From positions 1-64,000 of the forward strand of contig JAKPDL010000087.1 of assembly GCA_029552825.1 (NCBI GenBank): 64,000 nucleotides of DNA, given 5' to 3'. The stretch's first letter is position 1. Every line of letters begins with the position of its first letter. The notes under the pieces are model-generated. The model was not told where the DNA came from. It saw only the letters and a list, made by a program, of their open reading frames with translations, and did not search any database. Of this stretch, positions 54,035 through 62,756 are shown one piece after another. Position numbers and translations under genes: made by a program. Origin of the DNA: Bacteroidota bacterium (GTDB lineage Bacteria; Bacteroidota; Bacteroidia; Bacteroidales; VadinHA17).

Positions 54035-55558
54035 TCAGGCACCAGTAATTCCAGCAATTCTGTAAAGTTCTTCAATATAATCACGGCTGTTTGAGAGGCG
54101 AGGGACTTTATTTTGACCTCCAAGTTTGTTTTTTTCTTTCAGCCAGTTGTAGAAAGTTCCTCGGGGTACGCTTCTGACAACTGGCATTGTAAGGTTAAGG
54201 TCTTTGAAACGTTTGGCTTCATAATCGGAATTTACCTGTTTAAGAGCTTCATCAAGTTTTTCGGTAAAAAGGGCAAGGTCGCCTGGTTCTTTTTCAAATT
54301 CAATAATCCATTCGTGCGAGCCCTTTGAAGATAAACCGGTAAATACAGGGCCTGCAGTATATTCAAGTACAATTGCTCCTGTTGCATTACAGGCACTTTC
54401 AATAGCCTTATCGGCGTTTTCAACAATTACTTCTTCCCCGAAAACATTGATATAGTGCCGGGTTCTACCTGAAATAATGAATTTGTGAGGGTATAGAGAT
54501 GTAAACTGAATGGTATCACCTATTAAGTATCTCCATAAGCCTCCGTTTGTGGATATTACCATGGCATAATTGGTTCCTTTTGACACTTCTCCAATTGTAA
54601 GTGCAGTATTTTTCCCGGAACTGATTTCGTTAACCGGAATAAACTCATAAAATATGCCAATATCAAGCATCAGCAGCATATCGCTCGATGAAAAGTCATC
54701 CTGGACCCCAAAAAAACCTTCGGATGCGTTGTAGGTTTCGACATATCTGAATTGAGAGTCGCTGATGAAATGCCTGAAAAGTTCTCTGTAAGGTTTGAAG
54801 CTGACTCCACCATGGAAAAAGACCTCAAGATTTGGCCAAACCTCCTTCAGGTCAGTTTTTCCGGTGTAATTTAAAATTTGCTTTATCAGTACCAGAAACC
54901 ATGATGGGACACCGGTAAGGCTGGTAACATTTTGTTTGACGGTTATACGGGTTATCAGTTCAAGTTTTTTTTCAAAATCTTCAATTAAAGCGATTTTCCT
55001 GGATGGGGTTCTGATAATGTCGAACCACCATGGAGTATTTTCAATAAGTATTGCTGAAAGATCCCCATACAATGACCTGTTGCTGAAATTGTCTATTTTA
55101 TGACTGCCACCGAGGATCAAGCCTTTTCCGTAAAAAATACCTGAATCAGGACGGTTGTTAAGATATAATGCAATAACATCTTTCCCTCCCTGGTAATGGC
55201 ATTCATGGAGTGAATCCCTGGTAATAGGAATGAATTTGCTTCTTGCTCCGGTTGTCCCCGAAGATTTTGCGAACCATTTTACAGCCCCTGGCCATAGAAG
55301 ATTCTTTTCACCGTTTCTAAGTCTTTCAATAAATGGCAATAATTCTTCGTATCCCTGAATGGGGACTCTTTCCTGGAATTGTTTAATGGTTCTGATGCCT
55401 GAATATTCGTGCATGATACCCCACTCTGTCTTTGCGGCCCTGCTTATTAAATTCCTGAAAACAGCTTCCTGAATCTCTTCAGGATTCTTCCTGAAGAAGT
55501 CTATTTGCCTCAACCTGCTTTTATTGATAGAGTTTGCTATAGAAGTAATAAATGTCAT
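54035..55558 (-). CDS. GH3 auxin-responsive promoter family protein (acyl-adenylating amido synthetase-like)
   Basis: This 507-residue ANL-fold protein has the adenylate-forming P-loop as FAKSSGTTGARSKFIPITRDS. Further GH3 blocks: YNASEGFFGVQDDF (motif II), LWRYLIGDTIQFTSLYP and the motif SGRTRHYINVFGEEV. Plant members join amino acids to jasmonate or auxin; the bacterial group is common in Bacteroidota and mostly uncharacterised. It follows recO by 29 nt on the same strand. Confidence 0.93.
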   Translation of the reverse strand: MTFITSIANSINKSRLRQIDFFRKNPEEIQEAVFRNLISRAAKTEWGIMHEYSGIRTIKQFQERVPIQGYEELLPFIERLRNGEKNLLWPGAVKWFAKSSGTTGARSKFIPITRDSLHECHYQGGKDVIALYLNNRPDSGIFYGKGLILGGSHKIDNFSNRSLYGDLSAILIENTPWWFDIIRTPSRKIALIEDFEKKLELITRITVKQNVTSLTGVPSWFLVLIKQILNYTGKTDLKEVWPNLEVFFHGGVSFKPYRELFRHFISDSQFRYVETYNASEGFFGVQDDFSSSDMLLMLDIGIFYEFIPVNEISSGKNTALTIGEVSKGTNYAMVISTNGGLWRYLIGDTIQFTSLYPHKFIISGRTRHYINVFGEEVIVENADKAIESACNATGAIVLEYTAGPVFTGLSSKGSHEWIIEFEKEPGDLALFTEKLDEALKQVNSDYEAKRFKDLNLTMPVVRSVPRGTFYNWLKEKNKLGGQNKVPRLSNSRDYIEELYRIAGITGA

Positions 55559-56371: not shown

Positions 56372-56460
56372 TGGATTTATTCCGTATTATAGCCTGAATA
56401 AACCGGGATAATTCTTACTAAAAGCACTAATAATAAATTTTGTATATTTACGATTCAAGC

Positions 56461-57873
56461 ATGATAAAGAAGATGGCATTAAAAGATAATCAGGAACTTG
56501 TAAGAAGAATTGCGAAACTGGCAAAACAGAACCAGGAACTTGAAGAGCACATAAAGAAGCTTCAGAAAGAAAATGAAAAACTTGCCAGGGAGCTGGAGAA
56601 GTTTAAAGCGCTTTCCGAAAAATTATCTCCGGAATTACTGAAAGAAGAGGGAGAAAAGAGGGAAAGGTCGCTCAAATTTGATATGGCGACTATCCTTTTT
56701 GCTGATATACATGGGTTTTCAAAACTTGTAGAAGAGATTGATTCGACGGTTCTGATGGATGAGTTAGATGAAATACTTTTTGAATTTGACAGAATAGCTG
56801 AGAATTACAAGATTGAAAAAATTAAAACCATTGGTGATACCTATATGTGCGTGGGAGGGATTCCGGTAAAAAACATCACCAATCCGGTTGATGTGGTTAT
56901 GGCAGCGATTGCAATGAGGAATCACCTGCAGGAAATTGAGAACAAGAAACGCGGGCCGGAGAAGAGGATCTGGGATCTTAAGATAGGCATCCACACTGGT
57001 CCTGTCACTGCTACTGTGACAGGCAAGAAAAAAGTGAGCTACGACATTAAAGGTGATACGGTGAATACAGCAAGCCGGATTCAGGCTGTATCAGAAAAGG
57101 GAATGATTTTGATATCGGTTATGACTTATGAACTGGTAAAGGAGTTTTTTGATTGTATTTATTTCGGAAAACTTCCGGTAAAATACAAAGGCGACCTGCA
57201 GATCTTTGAAGTTAAAGGGTTAAAACCTGAATTTTCGGTTAACGGGGATGGTAAAACCCCGAATGATACATTCAGGATAAAATTTGGTCTTATCCAGTTT
57301 ACAGATATACAGGAAATAGTGCTTGACAAGCTGGAAAAGGAATTGCCGTCATATCTCTATTATCATAATGTGAAACACACAGTGGATGTAGTCACTGAGG
57401 TAGAACTCATAGGCTGGGCAGAAGGGTGTACCGATGAAGAGATTCTGCTTCTTAAAACTGCTGCATTATTCCATGATGCAGGCCACACAATAGGATATGA
57501 TAATCACGAGTATTATAGCACCCAGATTGCCAGGGAAATGCTTCCTAAATACAATTATACTCCCGAACAGATAGACAGAATATGTGAAATAATAATGGCA
57601 ACAAAACTGCCTCCCCGGCCCAAAAACCTGCTTGAAGAGATAATTTGTGATTCCGACCTTGATTATTTAGGCAGAAGTGATTTTATTCCGGTCTCCAATA
57701 CACTTTTCGAGGAGTTGAAGGCTCAGAACAAGATAAGTTCACTAAATGAATGGAACAAAATGCAGGTTAAGTTTATTTCAAACCATCAGTATTTCACAAA
57801 AACAGCCAGAAGTCTCAGGGAAGTTAATAAACAGCAGCAGATAGAAAGAATTCAGAGTCTCATAACAGAATGA
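56461..57873 (+). CDS. Soluble class III adenylyl cyclase fused to an intact HD phosphohydrolase-like domain
   Basis: This protein is 470 residues from the ATG at 56461; an in-frame TTG at 56440 lies in the presumed promoter and is disfavoured. N-terminal coiled coil 8-56 is followed by a class III cyclase domain, about 70-245. It has both metal aspartates (Asp82 in ILFADIHGF and Asp126 in TIGDTYM), the adenine-selecting pair Lys122 (EKIKTIGD) and Asp195 (SYDIKGD), and the transition-state Asn202 and Arg206 in VNTASR. The C-terminal domain (about 275-450) resembles HD-superfamily enzymes: YHNVKH (His302, His306), LFHDAGH (His338-Asp339, His342) and CDSDLDYLGR (Asp397 or Asp399). Both halves therefore look active: one makes cAMP, the other may break a phosphodiester. 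No membrane segment. Convergent with porZ; paralogue at 60888. Confidence 0.88.
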   Translation: MIKKMALKDNQELVRRIAKLAKQNQELEEHIKKLQKENEKLARELEKFKALSEKLSPELLKEEGEKRERSLKFDMATILFADIHGFSKLVEEIDSTVLMDELDEILFEFDRIAENYKIEKIKTIGDTYMCVGGIPVKNITNPVDVVMAAIAMRNHLQEIENKKRGPEKRIWDLKIGIHTGPVTATVTGKKKVSYDIKGDTVNTASRIQAVSEKGMILISVMTYELVKEFFDCIYFGKLPVKYKGDLQIFEVKGLKPEFSVNGDGKTPNDTFRIKFGLIQFTDIQEIVLDKLEKELPSYLYYHNVKHTVDVVTEVELIGWAEGCTDEEILLLKTAALFHDAGHTIGYDNHEYYSTQIAREMLPKYNYTPEQIDRICEIIMATKLPPRPKNLLEEIICDSDLDYLGRSDFIPVSNTLFEELKAQNKISSLNEWNKMQVKFISNHQYFTKTARSLREVNKQQQIERIQSLITE

Positions 57874-57881
57874 TTAATGAT

Positions 57882-60164
57882 TTATTTAATTACAAGGACC
57901 TTTGTTACGGCAGTTTGTTCTCCATCTTCGCTTGCACATAAAATAATATAGACTCCAGTGGAGACTCTTTCTCCCGTGTATGTTTTCAGATCCCAGGTTG
58001 CCTGACCTCCCTGAGAGATAGTTTTGTAAACCAGATTACCGCTAACATCTGTTATTTTTACGGATGTATTACGCATAAGTCCTGTAATTGTAAGAACCCC
58101 TTCATAGTTTTCCCTTACCGGGTTGGGGAAAGCATATATGTTGCTAAATTTTTCTGCACCGGTAGTAGCTTCGCCTCTTACAGAAACAACGCCTTTTGAA
58201 GTTCCGAACCATATTTCACCTGTTTTGCCATCAATGGCAATGCTTACTACCATATTTGAAAAAAGAGGACTGTTTTCCTCATTGTAGTTGATCAGTTTTG
58301 TTGTGCCGTCGGCTGAAAGGAGATAAGCACCGGAATTGTAAGTACCCAGCCATTTACGGTTTGCTCCGTCAATGGATATGGAGCTTATGATTTCTGTTCC
58401 AAGCATGTAATCTGCAAGGCCCGAACCATCGCTACGGGGAATTTTAATTCTTATTGCAGGTATATCTTCATCAAATATTCTGGAGGGATTGAAATAAACA
58501 GCCGGACCCTTGTCAGTTCCTACCCAGATATTTCCTTCGAGGTCTTCAGCAATGCTGTAAACATTCGAAATTATTTTATTATCGTTATCCCGTATAAGCA
58601 TTTGCTTATACCTGTCGTCGGTAAAATTATCTATTGTTCCATTGTCATCCATAACGAAAAGTCCAAACCCTCTTGGTAGAACAATCCATTTCTGACCTGT
58701 GGAAGTTATAATAATGTCTCCGATTGTAGGAGCATCAATTGTAACCGGAAATTGTGTCCAGGTATTGTTCGCTTTGAGTACTTTGATGCTACCCGGTACA
58801 CCAGTCTGTGTTATCCATATATTTCTATCTCTGTCCATGGCAATGCCGCATATCCTTGTATAAGGTTTATCTGGAATTATTGTCTGCAGAGGTGAATTTG
58901 TATAGTCATATTTTTTTACAAGAGTGTTTTTCTCGTATTCCAGCAATCCAGCTCCCCATGTTGTAACCCAGAAATGATCTGGATTGTTGGGGTCGGGCAG
59001 TATCCTGAGAGGATCGTGTAAATCATTTGATAATTGCCATTGCCATGTATTGTTTTCGTGAATAAAGATTTGAAGAGGTCTCCATTGATTATTCCATGCA
59101 TTGTCGAGAGCACCTCCTGCAATATAGGTTTTATTACTGGCGTTTGCGATAAATAATACATTGTTTGTATATGGACCCGGGAGAGAGAGTTTTGTAAAAT
59201 TACCTGAAATAGAGTATTTGATCAAGCCATTACTTCTGTCGGCTATCCATATATCTTCTCCTTCTGCCATAGCATGAGCTATATCAGGTGAACCGGAGTT
59301 GTAGGAAGAAATAACTGACGTAAGAAGTCCATCGGTATTGTAAATTCTCACCATACTTCCTGATGCAACAATAAATCCTTCAGAGTATGTTTCGATGGAA
59401 AAATTTTTTATGCCCGATTGTAACGAAAATATGGTTACGTTATGAGAATTGTCAAAACAAAAGATTGTGTCTGTACCTGAGCGTGAAGACAGATTTACAT
59501 AAACCTTTTTGTTCAGGAAGCCAACGGTATTAAAAGAAGCAAGAGGGTTAGGGAATGAATTAATTCTGAACCAGTTGCCAGAATATGCCAGACCTGCGAT
59601 TGTTAAATCCGAATAATAAAGCCCTGTATTTGTTGCTGCATAAATTGTTGTACCGTCAAAAGCTACATCATAAACTTCTGTACCTTCCTCTCCCGGTTTC
59701 CATGTGTCGTATATTTCCTTCTTACCTATATCAAGTACAATAATGCCCAGGCTGCCAGCCAGATATGCATATTTTCCACGGGTTCTTATTTTATATATTT
59801 CTTTTTTGCCAGGAAAATATTTTTTCTTTATTTCAGGAACGTTAAAAATATTATTTCCTGAAACGATATCGATATTGGTTGATTGATAAGCTATAATAAG
59901 AGATTTTCTTTCTTCTGACCATCCAATTGTGCTTATTCCTGTTTCTGTAAGACCCTGGACTTTACTCATTTTTCTTAGTTCACTGTACTTCTTATTGAAT
60001 ATCAGCAGAGAACTTCCGGTTGACGCATAAACCTCATCAGGTCCTATGGCCACTACCAGTGCAGAGCGATATGAAAGATGATCCTTCCACGAACCTACAG
60101 GTCCCTGGGCTTTTATAGAAACTGTAAATAATAGCAAAACCGGTAGTGAAGAAAAAATTCTCAT
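57882..60164 (-). CDS. porZ: PorZ-like type IX secretion component with two-propeller body and C-terminal sorting domain
   Basis: This 760-residue protein starts with a signal peptide (residues 1-19) and a PorZ-type N-terminal propeller (GPVGSWKDHLSYRSALVVAI, SKVQGLTETGISTIGWSEER). Later two-component-regulator-propeller-like blades appear (SIAEDLEGNIWVGTDKGPAV, SIAIDGKTGEIWFGTSKGVV). The final 80 residues form a T9SS C-terminal domain: YAFPNPVRENYEGVLTI, VKITDVSGNLVYKT and GVYIILCASEDG. In Porphyromonas PorZ is a surface member of the T9SS attachment complex that binds A-LPS and also bears this domain. It shares a minus-strand transcript with rdgB, 17 nt upstream. Its presence implies the cell has T9SS, although no other por gene lies in this window. 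Confidence 0.85.
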   Translation of the reverse strand: MRIFSSLPVLLLFTVSIKAQGPVGSWKDHLSYRSALVVAIGPDEVYASTGSSLLIFNKKYSELRKMSKVQGLTETGISTIGWSEERKSLIIAYQSTNIDIVSGNNIFNVPEIKKKYFPGKKEIYKIRTRGKYAYLAGSLGIIVLDIGKKEIYDTWKPGEEGTEVYDVAFDGTTIYAATNTGLYYSDLTIAGLAYSGNWFRINSFPNPLASFNTVGFLNKKVYVNLSSRSGTDTIFCFDNSHNVTIFSLQSGIKNFSIETYSEGFIVASGSMVRIYNTDGLLTSVISSYNSGSPDIAHAMAEGEDIWIADRSNGLIKYSISGNFTKLSLPGPYTNNVLFIANASNKTYIAGGALDNAWNNQWRPLQIFIHENNTWQWQLSNDLHDPLRILPDPNNPDHFWVTTWGAGLLEYEKNTLVKKYDYTNSPLQTIIPDKPYTRICGIAMDRDRNIWITQTGVPGSIKVLKANNTWTQFPVTIDAPTIGDIIITSTGQKWIVLPRGFGLFVMDDNGTIDNFTDDRYKQMLIRDNDNKIISNVYSIAEDLEGNIWVGTDKGPAVYFNPSRIFDEDIPAIRIKIPRSDGSGLADYMLGTEIISSISIDGANRKWLGTYNSGAYLLSADGTTKLINYNEENSPLFSNMVVSIAIDGKTGEIWFGTSKGVVSVRGEATTGAEKFSNIYAFPNPVRENYEGVLTITGLMRNTSVKITDVSGNLVYKTISQGGQATWDLKTYTGERVSTGVYIILCASEDGEQTAVTKVLVIK

Positions 60165-60181
60165 ACCTGATAAACTGACAG

Positions 60182-60781
60182 CTAATTATTTTTATTGTCG
60201 CAGGAATTATTTTGGAGCAGGAATGATTTAAGTTTTCTGAAAGCAATTGCCCTGTGGGAAATCATATTTTTTTGGTTAAGGGTCATTTCGGCAAATGTCT
60301 GAGTGTAACCATCAGGCAGAAAAATTGGGTCGTATCCAAAACCACCTGTTCCCCTTCTTTCCCTGAGAATTGTTCCATTTACTTTACCTTCAAAGAGATA
60401 TTCCCTCTCGTTTTTTATAAGTGCTATAACGGTCCGGAAAGCCGCTTTTCTATTTTCCGCGTCTTTCATCAATTCAAGAACTTTATCGATGTTTTTTTCA
60501 AAATCTTTTTCTTCGCCTGCAAATCTTGCCGAAAAGACACCCGGAGCACCATTGAGGGCATCAATTTCCAGCCCCGTATCATCTGCAAATACATCCATAC
60601 CGGTAATTTTATGAATGTACCTTGCTTTGGCCATTGCATTTTCTTCCAGTGTATTATAATCTTCGGGTATTTCGCAGTGAATATTTACATCTTCCAGGCT
60701 GAGAAGTTCAATATTATCTCCCAGTAATTCACTTATTTCTCTGATTTTGTGCTTGTTGTTGGTGGCAAAAACGAGTCTCAT
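60182..60781 (-). CDS. rdgB: XTP/dITP diphosphatase (house-cleaning NTPase)
   Basis: This 199-residue enzyme hydrolyses ITP, XTP and dITP to monophosphates. HAM1 signatures: LVFATNNKHKIREISELL at the start, DVFADDTGLEIDALNGAPGV, GTGGFGYDPIFLPDGYTQTF and SHRAIAFRKL. The ATG at 60781 is chosen since the TTG at 60802 is inside the promoter element. It opens the rdgB-porZ unit. Confidence 0.96.
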   Translation of the reverse strand: MRLVFATNNKHKIREISELLGDNIELLSLEDVNIHCEIPEDYNTLEENAMAKARYIHKITGMDVFADDTGLEIDALNGAPGVFSARFAGEEKDFEKNIDKVLELMKDAENRKAAFRTVIALIKNEREYLFEGKVNGTILRERRGTGGFGYDPIFLPDGYTQTFAEMTLNQKNMISHRAIAFRKLKSFLLQNNSCDNKNN

Positions 60782-60799
60782 ATAGACTGAATATGGAGC

Positions 60800-60807
60800 C
60801 AAAAATA
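60800..60807 (-). promoter_or_regulatory. -7 promoter element TATTTTTG for rdgB-porZ
   Basis: It is a perfect TAnnTTTG on the minus strand; start near 60793, about 12 nt before the ATG. No clear -33. Confidence 0.5.
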
Positions 60808-60887: not shown

Positions 60888-62756
60888 ATGCTGACGATCC
60901 TGGTTTTATGGAGAGTGCTTTGTATTTTTGTCTCTCTGGATATAAGTCTGGAAGCATCAACATGTTTTCAGACTATTTCAGAAAACCCGCAAAAAGTTTT
61001 TATAGAAAAAATATTTGTAGGAAATGATTCTATTGTCTTTGCAAGTGGAGAAACATCCGGGACGGAAAAGCTAATTGAAAGCAAAATAATTCTTGGGAGG
61101 CGGAATAATAATATTTCATTTCAGCTTTCAGAGCCTGGGGAGGGTCATTTCAGTTTCATGCTTGAAAATTTTGACAAAGGATGGACCAGGTGGCAAAAGT
61201 CGGGGGTAAAGGATTATACAAATCTGCCTGCCGGTAAATATCTGTTCCATGCCAGGTATATGGAGCCTGGCATGCCGGTTATAATGTTGGTACCTATTGA
61301 ATTTAAAGTAGTGCCCGCATGGTACAGTTCTTTTACGGCTATATCATTTTATATTTTGTTGTTCTGTCTGGCCGCCTGGGCTGTTTATGAGCAGATGAAA
61401 TACAGATTTGCCCGAACTCAGTACATGCTTGAGCAGATAATAAATGCAAGAACGGAAGAACTGATAATTGAAAAGGAAAAATCAGAAAGTCTGCTTGCCA
61501 ATGTTCTGCCCAAGAGTACAGCTGATGAATTGATGGCAAAAGGTAAAGCGACAAAAGCAAAATATAATTTTGTTACAGTTTTATTTTCAGATATACAGGG
61601 ATTTACCAAGATAGCTGAAGAAACAAATCCGGAGGTTCTTATTGATGAACTGGATAAGTTTTTCTTTTACTTTGATTCGGTGGTTGAAAAGTATGGTATT
61701 GAAAAGATTAAGACAATCGGTGATGCTTACATGTGTGCTGGTGGCATACCAGAAAAAAACCGCGCAAATCCCATTGAAGTAATACTTGCTGCTCTTGAAA
61801 TGCAGGAGTACATGGAGAAGCTTAAGTCTTCATCGGAATTTGAGGGCATGAAGTTATGGGATATACGTATAGGTATTCATACAGGAACAGTTGTAGCCGG
61901 AGTTGTAGGGCAGAAGAAACTCTCTTACGATATATGGGGAGATACTGTAAATACTGCAAGCAGGATGGAATCATCAGGTGAACCTGGAAAAATAAATATT
62001 TCTGGAACCACTTACGAATTTGTTAAGGATTTTTTCATCTGTAAATACCGTGGCAAAATGCCTGTCAAGTACAAGGGCGAGATAGATATGTACTTTGTCG
62101 AAGGCATCAGGGAAGAACTTCGAGATGAGAACAACAGGCCAAACAGGAAGTTTATCACAAAGATGAAAAAGCTTCGCTTAAGTGATATAGAGGAATATAT
62201 TTTGAAATATTTTGATGATGAAGCTCCCCCTAATCTTTATTTTCATAATTCGTCGCATGCAAGGAATGTCTGTAACCAGGTAGACCTTCTTGCAACCGCC
62301 GAACAGATCGATGATGAAAATTATATTCCATTAAAACTTGCTGCTATTTTTCTTTATACTGGATATATATCTGATTACAATAAGCCGATGGAAGCGGCTA
62401 TTAGTTTGATAGAAGAAGTTCTGCCGAAGTATTCGCTTCTTAACGAAGACATTGAATCAACCAAAAAACTCATAATGAACTCTTATAATGAAGATACCGA
62501 AACCCTTGCGGATTTCATTTTACATGATGCAAAGTATGATTGGCTCGGAAGGGTTGATTACATAAAACTGATTGACAAGCTATTCAGGGAGGAATCGGAA
62601 TATGGGAAAGTTATCAGCAGGGAGGAATGGATTCAGAATCAGAGAAAGATACTTGTTGAACATGAGTTTCTTACGGCGACTGCCAGGTTATTAAGAAGTG
62701 TAACAGTTGAGGAACAGGTTTCATTACTTCAGGATTTTGGGAAAGAGTTAAAATGA
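60888..62756 (+). CDS. Membrane adenylyl cyclase with Y_Y_Y-type sensor and degenerate HD domain
   Basis: This 622-residue protein begins with a signal-like segment (2-20). Residues about 72-142 form a Y_Y_Y-type beta domain (NNNISFQLSEPGEGHFSFML, NLPAGKYLFHARYM), which would be extracytoplasmic. A membrane helix (149-169) and a short coiled coil (180-205) lead to the cyclase domain, about 222-405. All catalytic residues are present: Asp235, Asp279, Lys275, Asp348, Asn355 and Arg359, so it should make cAMP. The C-terminal 180 residues align with the HD domain of its paralogue at 56461, but LFHDAGH is replaced by FLYTGY (488-493), losing the His-Asp pair, although His457 and Asp547 remain. It is likely a pseudo-HD, sensory or regulatory. 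It is divergent from rdgB. Confidence 0.88.
   Translation: MLTILVLWRVLCIFVSLDISLEASTCFQTISENPQKVFIEKIFVGNDSIVFASGETSGTEKLIESKIILGRRNNNISFQLSEPGEGHFSFMLENFDKGWTRWQKSGVKDYTNLPAGKYLFHARYMEPGMPVIMLVPIEFKVVPAWYSSFTAISFYILLFCLAAWAVYEQMKYRFARTQYMLEQIINARTEELIIEKEKSESLLANVLPKSTADELMAKGKATKAKYNFVTVLFSDIQGFTKIAEETNPEVLIDELDKFFFYFDSVVEKYGIEKIKTIGDAYMCAGGIPEKNRANPIEVILAALEMQEYMEKLKSSSEFEGMKLWDIRIGIHTGTVVAGVVGQKKLSYDIWGDTVNTASRMESSGEPGKINISGTTYEFVKDFFICKYRGKMPVKYKGEIDMYFVEGIREELRDENNRPNRKFITKMKKLRLSDIEEYILKYFDDEAPPNLYFHNSSHARNVCNQVDLLATAEQIDDENYIPLKLAAIFLYTGYISDYNKPMEAAISLIEEVLPKYSLLNEDIESTKKLIMNSYNEDTETLADFILHDAKYDWLGRVDYIKLIDKLFREESEYGKVISREEWIQNQRKILVEHEFLTATARLLRSVTVEEQVSLLQDFGKELK

Follow-up and report, generated by a model that had tools for sequence, protein, structure and literature searches.

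We analyzed a 64,000-nucleotide stretch of DNA from a Bacteroidales bacterium of the VadinHA17 lineage (contig JAKPDL010000087.1, positions 1 to 64,000; hereafter the window), in which an earlier note had pointed to a class III nucleotide cyclase fused to an HD domain. The window probably carries a two-gene module that makes and breaks cyclic AMP (cAMP) and that was derived from a duplicated bifunctional receptor. The two genes encode P0001, a short soluble cyclase-HD protein, and P0002, its long membrane paralogue, whose gene follows 3 kb downstream in the same orientation. Both genes are present, as are the cyclase residues of each and the HD ligands of P0001; conservation and loss of the two sites are reciprocal among the homologues, the HD domain matches the fold of cyclic-nucleotide phosphodiesterases (PDEs), and the HD family is linked to class III cyclases. 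Neither the paralogue nor the variability of the cyclase residue Asp82 had been mentioned in the earlier note.

The open reading frame of P0001 (56461-57873, plus strand; coordinates of all features are given in Table 1) is open throughout, and other possible starts are a TTG at 56440 and an ATG at 56473. A probable coiled coil is followed by the class III cyclase and then by the HD domain. Pfam assigned residues 72-251 to Guanylate_cyc (PF00211; E 2e-41, 141.9 bits against a gathering score of 21.9) and residues 305-399 to HD (PF01966; 31.5 bits against a cut-off of 22). The cyclase residues identified by motif are D82, K122, D126, D195, N202, and R206; we take D82 and D126 to be the metal-binding Asp residues, K122 and D195 to be the adenine pair, and N202 and R206 to be the Asn/Arg pair of class III cyclases. 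In the HD domain, the motif residues are H302, H306, H338, D339, H342, and D399. The earlier note had described a cyclase with every catalytic residue, including Lys122/Asp195, and an HD domain with both histidine clusters and the Asp, carried together on a soluble chain, and these descriptions hold. No transmembrane segment was found in P0001, whose best 19-residue hydropathy mean is 1.27, compared to 2.0-2.2 in P0002, and its whole-chain AlphaFold model has a mean predicted local distance difference test (pLDDT) score of 88.4. Among 217 candidate stretches, 172 relatives of P0001 were detected. When the best 80 of these 172 were used for an alignment, H302, H306, H338, D339, and D399 were invariant across its 81 rows, and position 82 was Asp in only 47 of them. 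The architecture is thus not a product of chance, given the number of relatives and the invariance of the HD residues.

P0002 begins with a hydrophobic stretch. Behind it come the Y_Y_Y domain, another hydrophobic region around residues 148-166, the cyclase, and a decayed HD domain. Its cyclase scored 190.5 bits with PF00211 (gathering score 21.9), and equivalents of the P0001 catalytic residues are all present. No match to the Pfam HD model (PF01966) was found in P0002; H306 is retained, and the counterparts of H338, D339, and D399 are L, Y, and K, respectively. A search of this genome, which is 97.6% complete, found no class III cyclase other than P0001 and P0002 (hits with E up to 1e-8 considered).

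To compare the two forms across genomes, we assembled 204 homologous proteins, left out 14 with a missing or truncated domain, and thinned the remaining 190 to 169 non-redundant proteins, in which the cyclase-HD architecture proposed for a wider search does recur. Each was labelled short or long by its better BLASTP match, P0001 or P0002; one protein labelled short, L096, combines a strong cyclase domain with an uncertain position in the trees. The HD ligands H306, H338, D339, and D399 are all kept in 116 of 116 short forms, of which 42 have lost Asp82 and 74 keep both metal Asps. Conversely, both cyclase metal Asps are kept in 53 of 53 long forms, and HD ligands are lost in 51 of these. Losses at both sites occur in none of the 169 homologues. 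The decay of the long-form HD is graded, with only D399 lost in 9 proteins, all four ligands lost in 40, and all present in 2. Other HD residues mostly persist in the long forms (D397 in 53/53, H302 in 52/53, W431 in 51/53, and Q435 in 42/53), and therefore this domain may still bind something. All seven checked cyclase residues are canonical in 52 of the 53 long forms compared to 47 of the 116 short forms, in which D195 is not Asp in 26 and N202 is not Asn in 6. Among the forms scored in the genome-wide cyclase search, PF00211 gave 123-155 bits for the short type (G081 alone reaching 186) and 162-196 bits for the long type. Within 47 gene pairs, each compared in the same genome, the HD domain is more conserved than the cyclase in the short type (80.9% vs 74.0%) and the cyclase more conserved than the HD domain in the long type (85.4% vs 49.3%). 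Family constraint thus marks the HD domain as the essential part of the short type and its cyclase as apparently expendable, and P0002 looks like a dedicated maker, as variation at its cyclase residues is slight and metal ligands are missing from its own HD domain. Nine order-level genomes with an Asp82-less short protein (G061, G064, G071, G073, G075, G090, G092, G093, and G094) each have one or more additional class III cyclases.

The earlier note had proposed that P0001 limits itself, with the signal set by the balance of its two sites. As a single bifunctional chain that makes and destroys cAMP, P0001 would contain the whole balance, which we regard as possible but doubtful. The catalytic residues of both its domains are all present, as are both metal Asps in the 74 short homologues; fusions from other families (L143 and L146) carry both domains with HD ligands; and the single class III cyclase of genome G088 is a membrane form in which neither metal site has been lost. 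These points are set against the repeated loss of Asp82 elsewhere in the family, the lower PF00211 scores of short-form cyclase domains, and the dedicated cyclase P0002 only 3 kb away. Opposing activities in P0001 remain plausible, because both sites are intact and the HD domain is PDE-like by fold, motifs, and gene context. Nevertheless, selection seems to keep maker and breaker mostly on two chains. Since many short forms have lost Asp82 and P0002 looks like a dedicated maker, the balance probably lies mainly between the two genes and only partly within one chain.

The loss of Asp82 in the short forms is selective, because the other cyclase residues stay: D126, N202, and R206 are kept in 42 of the 42 proteins concerned and K122 in 40, with D195 changed in 10. 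The replacements are Asn (15), Tyr (14), Glu (9), His (2), and Ser (2), and in the nine proteins with Glu some cyclase activity might remain. In mammalian cyclases, C1 and C2 domains pair with one another. On this model, the short cyclase would supply K122, D195, N202, and R206 to the metal site of the long protein and dock the HD phosphodiesterase on the cyclase. Such a heterodimer seems unlikely to us. The selective pattern of loss agrees with it, as does the linkage of the genes in the 46 loci compared, a linkage that exists by construction because the pairs were taken from single loci; however, a pure C2-type partner would not be expected to retain D126, as all 42 proteins do, 10 of them have a changed D195, and other families of the order carry the two genes on separate contigs.

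In a quick tree of 133 rows, position 82 changed at least 17 times, on the short side only, and the result was the same with the trait columns left out; counting Glu as retained gave 10 changes. With the tree rooted on L143 and L146, two cyclase-HD fusions found in the class outside this family, the basal proteins are L098 and L083, long forms that keep the metal sites of both domains, and above them stand a long clade with decayed HD domains and a short clade, whose grouping as a single clade has weak support (83/65). In its simplest reading, the tree suggests that the ancestor was a bifunctional membrane receptor that underwent duplication and reciprocal loss. One duplicate would have lost the breaker, and the other the sensor and the membrane part and later, in many lineages, the maker. 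The gene pair looks like a natural split of one bifunctional protein into two specialists. Long forms in other families comprise some of 1220-1250 amino acids and others of 536-558 amino acids. A related cyclase receptor, L107, has Reg_prop and Y_Y_Y domains, and in three genomes (L089, L107, and L108) the HD domain forms a frame of its own immediately after such a cyclase gene, which represents either a separate gene or a frameshift.

A fold search with the whole P0001 protein returned cyclase structures that were uninformative on the HD domain, and therefore the search was repeated with the HD domain alone. The structure prediction called for in the earlier note gave a model that aligned with eukaryotic class I cyclic-nucleotide PDEs (PDE4, 7, 9, and 10, and trypanosome PDEB1) over 193-197 of 202 residues, that is, over nearly the whole domain. 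The model also resembles bacterial HD hydrolases, of which 2pq7 and YpgQ match the PDEs in Z; these and like chains gave a shorter alignment of 168-176 residues. By sequence profile, 2pq7, YedJ, and YpgQ are nearest to the P0001 HD domain; unlike P0001, their solved chains of approximately 200-240 residues have no cyclase. Class I PDE chains mostly have 300-330 residues, compared to approximately 200 in the P0001 HD domain, which scored 22.3 bits with the PDEase_I model (PF00233) and 19.1 bits as part of the whole protein, under the gathering score of 24.8. In the alignment with PDE9A, H302, H306, H338, D339, and H342 fall in register within the YHNxxH and HDxxH motifs, and D399 is placed by order only. 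PMC5617230 lists eight metal-pocket residues of class I PDEs, and no counterpart of the Glu/His pair of this pocket was matched in the P0001 HD domain. The Q435xxF438 motif is invariant in a 22-row HD alignment, and among the short forms Q435 is present in 115/116 and F438 in 114/116. In human PDEs, the invariant purine-reading Gln and the Phe of the clamp have a Q-x-x-F spacing, and Q435 and F438 may correspond to them. In the Giardia enzyme, the two residues named in PMC5617230 stand 12 apart. By sequence, no residue alignment with PDEs was obtained for the C-terminal half of the HD domain, as the profile matches to PDEs end before it. Other HD classes fitted poorly: RNase Y and HDIG models gave weak matches only, as did HD-CE (matched in 37 of 45 members, best 7e-4) and Ppx-GppA_III (matched in 26 of 45, best 4e-5), and HD-GYP structures ranked under other HD proteins in the fold search.

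Similar HD domains adjoin or are fused to class III cyclases in other Bacteroidota. There were 119 HD matches beyond the genome under study; 100 stretches with 101 HD genes were examined (G267 being present twice, as L149 and L233), with flanks of about 2.5-5 kb, or less where a contig ended. Other fusion partners of this HD family are PycTM, TPR-containing, and YitT proteins, and YpgQ, which was solved with ADP, is among the nearest structures to the P0001 HD domain. Both facts would suit an HD domain that acts on another nucleotide, such as a cyclic pyrimidine nucleotide or a nucleoside triphosphate, with the cyclase domain only regulating it; we consider this alternative improbable in view of position 435. 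Q435 is typical of cyclase-linked HD domains (short forms 115/116, cyclase fusions 2/2, and split HD genes 2/3), whereas PycTM-fused domains mostly have Asn (37/54) and rarely Gln (3/54). Moreover, a cyclase is present in the stretch of 7/14 stand-alone HD genes with Gln compared to 1/25 without it (Fisher p 0.0014), an enrichment for which 30 genomes were chosen for a stand-alone HD domain (33 of the 39 such genes), one gene each was assumed, and kinship was uncorrected; the other six genes have no cyclase in their stretch.

The HD-PycTM fusions (L149, L151, and others in L143-L242) make up 54 of the 101 HD genes, one gene being counted twice; the PycTM part (PF18967) was confirmed by Pfam in two, and the rest were assigned by similarity to L149. 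These genes could encode membrane effectors that carry a hydrolase for the signal to which they respond. In L187, L192, L208, and L224, all from one genus group (g89), a class III cyclase on the opposite strand touches the HD-PycTM gene or lies no more than 30 bases from it. In L145 (2375-4963) and L162 (3102-5741), a C-terminal HD domain of this family stands behind TPR repeats and an N-terminal stretch that presumably resembles a TIR and a TolB-like segment, TIR having no Pfam match (domains checked on L145); these parts occupy the position in which one might look for a class III cyclase. Response regulator cyclase-like genes encoding 348-361 amino acids adjoin the HD gene in L147 (2156-4670), L155, L157, L158, L159, and L162, and Pfam detected a receiver domain in those of L147 and L155. 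In genomes G196, G358, and G370, no class III cyclase other than the HD-adjacent response regulator-like one was found.

Under the two-gene explanation that we favor, P0002 would sense something extracellular through its Y_Y_Y domain and make cAMP, and its own HD domain, having lost metal ligands, should no longer hydrolyze but may still bind a nucleotide. The P0001 HD domain most likely hydrolyzes the same cyclic nucleotide, using a binuclear metal site of the class I PDE kind. The P0001 cyclase, which is intact here, probably serves for dimerization, nucleotide sensing, or minor synthase activity. We infer that cAMP is both product and substrate, that hydrolysis takes place at the HD site, and that both proteins act on one shared pool.

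A protein with both activities is known from plants. In Marchantia, CAPE (combined adenylyl cyclase with PDE) unites class III cyclase and class I PDE domains in a single polypeptide, and both activities were shown for MpCAPE (PMC5159850). In streptophytes, the PDE of CAPE lies at the N-terminus and the cyclase at the C-terminus (PMC8115329). P0001 too has a class III cyclase and a PDE-like HD domain in one chain, and the architecture is therefore not unique; however, CAPE is eukaryotic, the order in P0001 is reversed, and its HD domain is a 200-residue bacterial domain with a paralogue that shows reciprocal loss. No bacterial cyclase-HD phosphodiesterase pair was found among the literature matches listed. 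The Pycsar system (PycC cyclase with a PycTM or PycTIR effector) is similar in its class III cyclase and in that other Bacteroidota have fusions of PycTM with relatives of this HD domain, but the pair described here has the Lys/Asp adenine pair. Membership in Pycsar was rejected: no PycTM or PycTIR was found beside the pair, neither protein has a PycTM match, and the PycC scores are weak (37 and 61 bits).

The neighboring genes encode RecO, PorZ, RdgB, and IlvE. In 46 distinct loci from other genomes, chosen as single loci holding both genes, the two genes are always on one strand with PorZ in between. We take PorZ to be a component of type IX secretion. cAMP may be connected with type IX secretion; a literature search for a cAMP-PorZ link gave no useful result among the matches listed. 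In one 98% complete genome that retains the pair (G030, locus L131), no cNMP-binding domain (PF00027) was detected at E 1e-5. Elsewhere in the window, a GH3-like protein (54035-55558) matches OlsH, a lyso-ornithine lipid synthetase, with 414 bits, under the cut-off of 620, and a reading frame at 90-1355 presumably encodes an IS256-family (mutator type) transposase.

Table 1. Features of the P0001/P0002 locus in the window
Feature	Position	Strand	Basis or remark
P0001, short (soluble) cyclase-HD protein, 470 amino acids, both sites intact	56461..57873	+	Open reading frame, Pfam, motifs
N-terminal long helix, probably coiled coil, residues 2-54	56464..56622	+	AlphaFold model
Class III cyclase domain (PF00211), D82/D126/K122/D195/N202/R206 present	56674..57213	+	Pfam, motif
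HD domain with class I PDE-like motifs YHNxxH, HDxxH, D399, Q435xxF438	57265..57870	+	Pfam, motif, fold comparison
PorZ gene between the pair	57882..60164	-	NF052228, 614 bits against a cut-off of 260
RdgB/HAM1-type purine NTP diphosphatase between the pair	60182..60802	-	Present in 43 of 46 loci
P0002, long (membrane) paralogue, 622 amino acids: Y_Y_Y sensor domain, intact cyclase, HD domain without three of four metal ligands	60888..62756	+	

Class I PDEs have been described from vertebrates and diverse eukaryotes, and bacterial PDEs are placed in class III, according to PMC8115329. A bacterial PDE-like HD family tied to class III cyclases would, if true, provide an off-switch for cAMP signaling, and the eukaryotic PDEs would gain a candidate bacterial relative. 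The most far-reaching proposal, which we hold to be the least probable of those considered, is that the family is a compact class I-like PDE of Bacteroidota that co-evolved with class III cyclases, in the shape of fusions, neighboring genes, and paralogues decaying reciprocally, and has common ancestry with eukaryotic class I PDEs, with P0001 completing the site of the membrane cyclase and bringing the phosphodiesterase to it. In the gene pair, site-by-site loss is visible on the tree. A genome with only two class III cyclases offers a direct genetic test, in which one gene should raise cAMP and the other should lower it.
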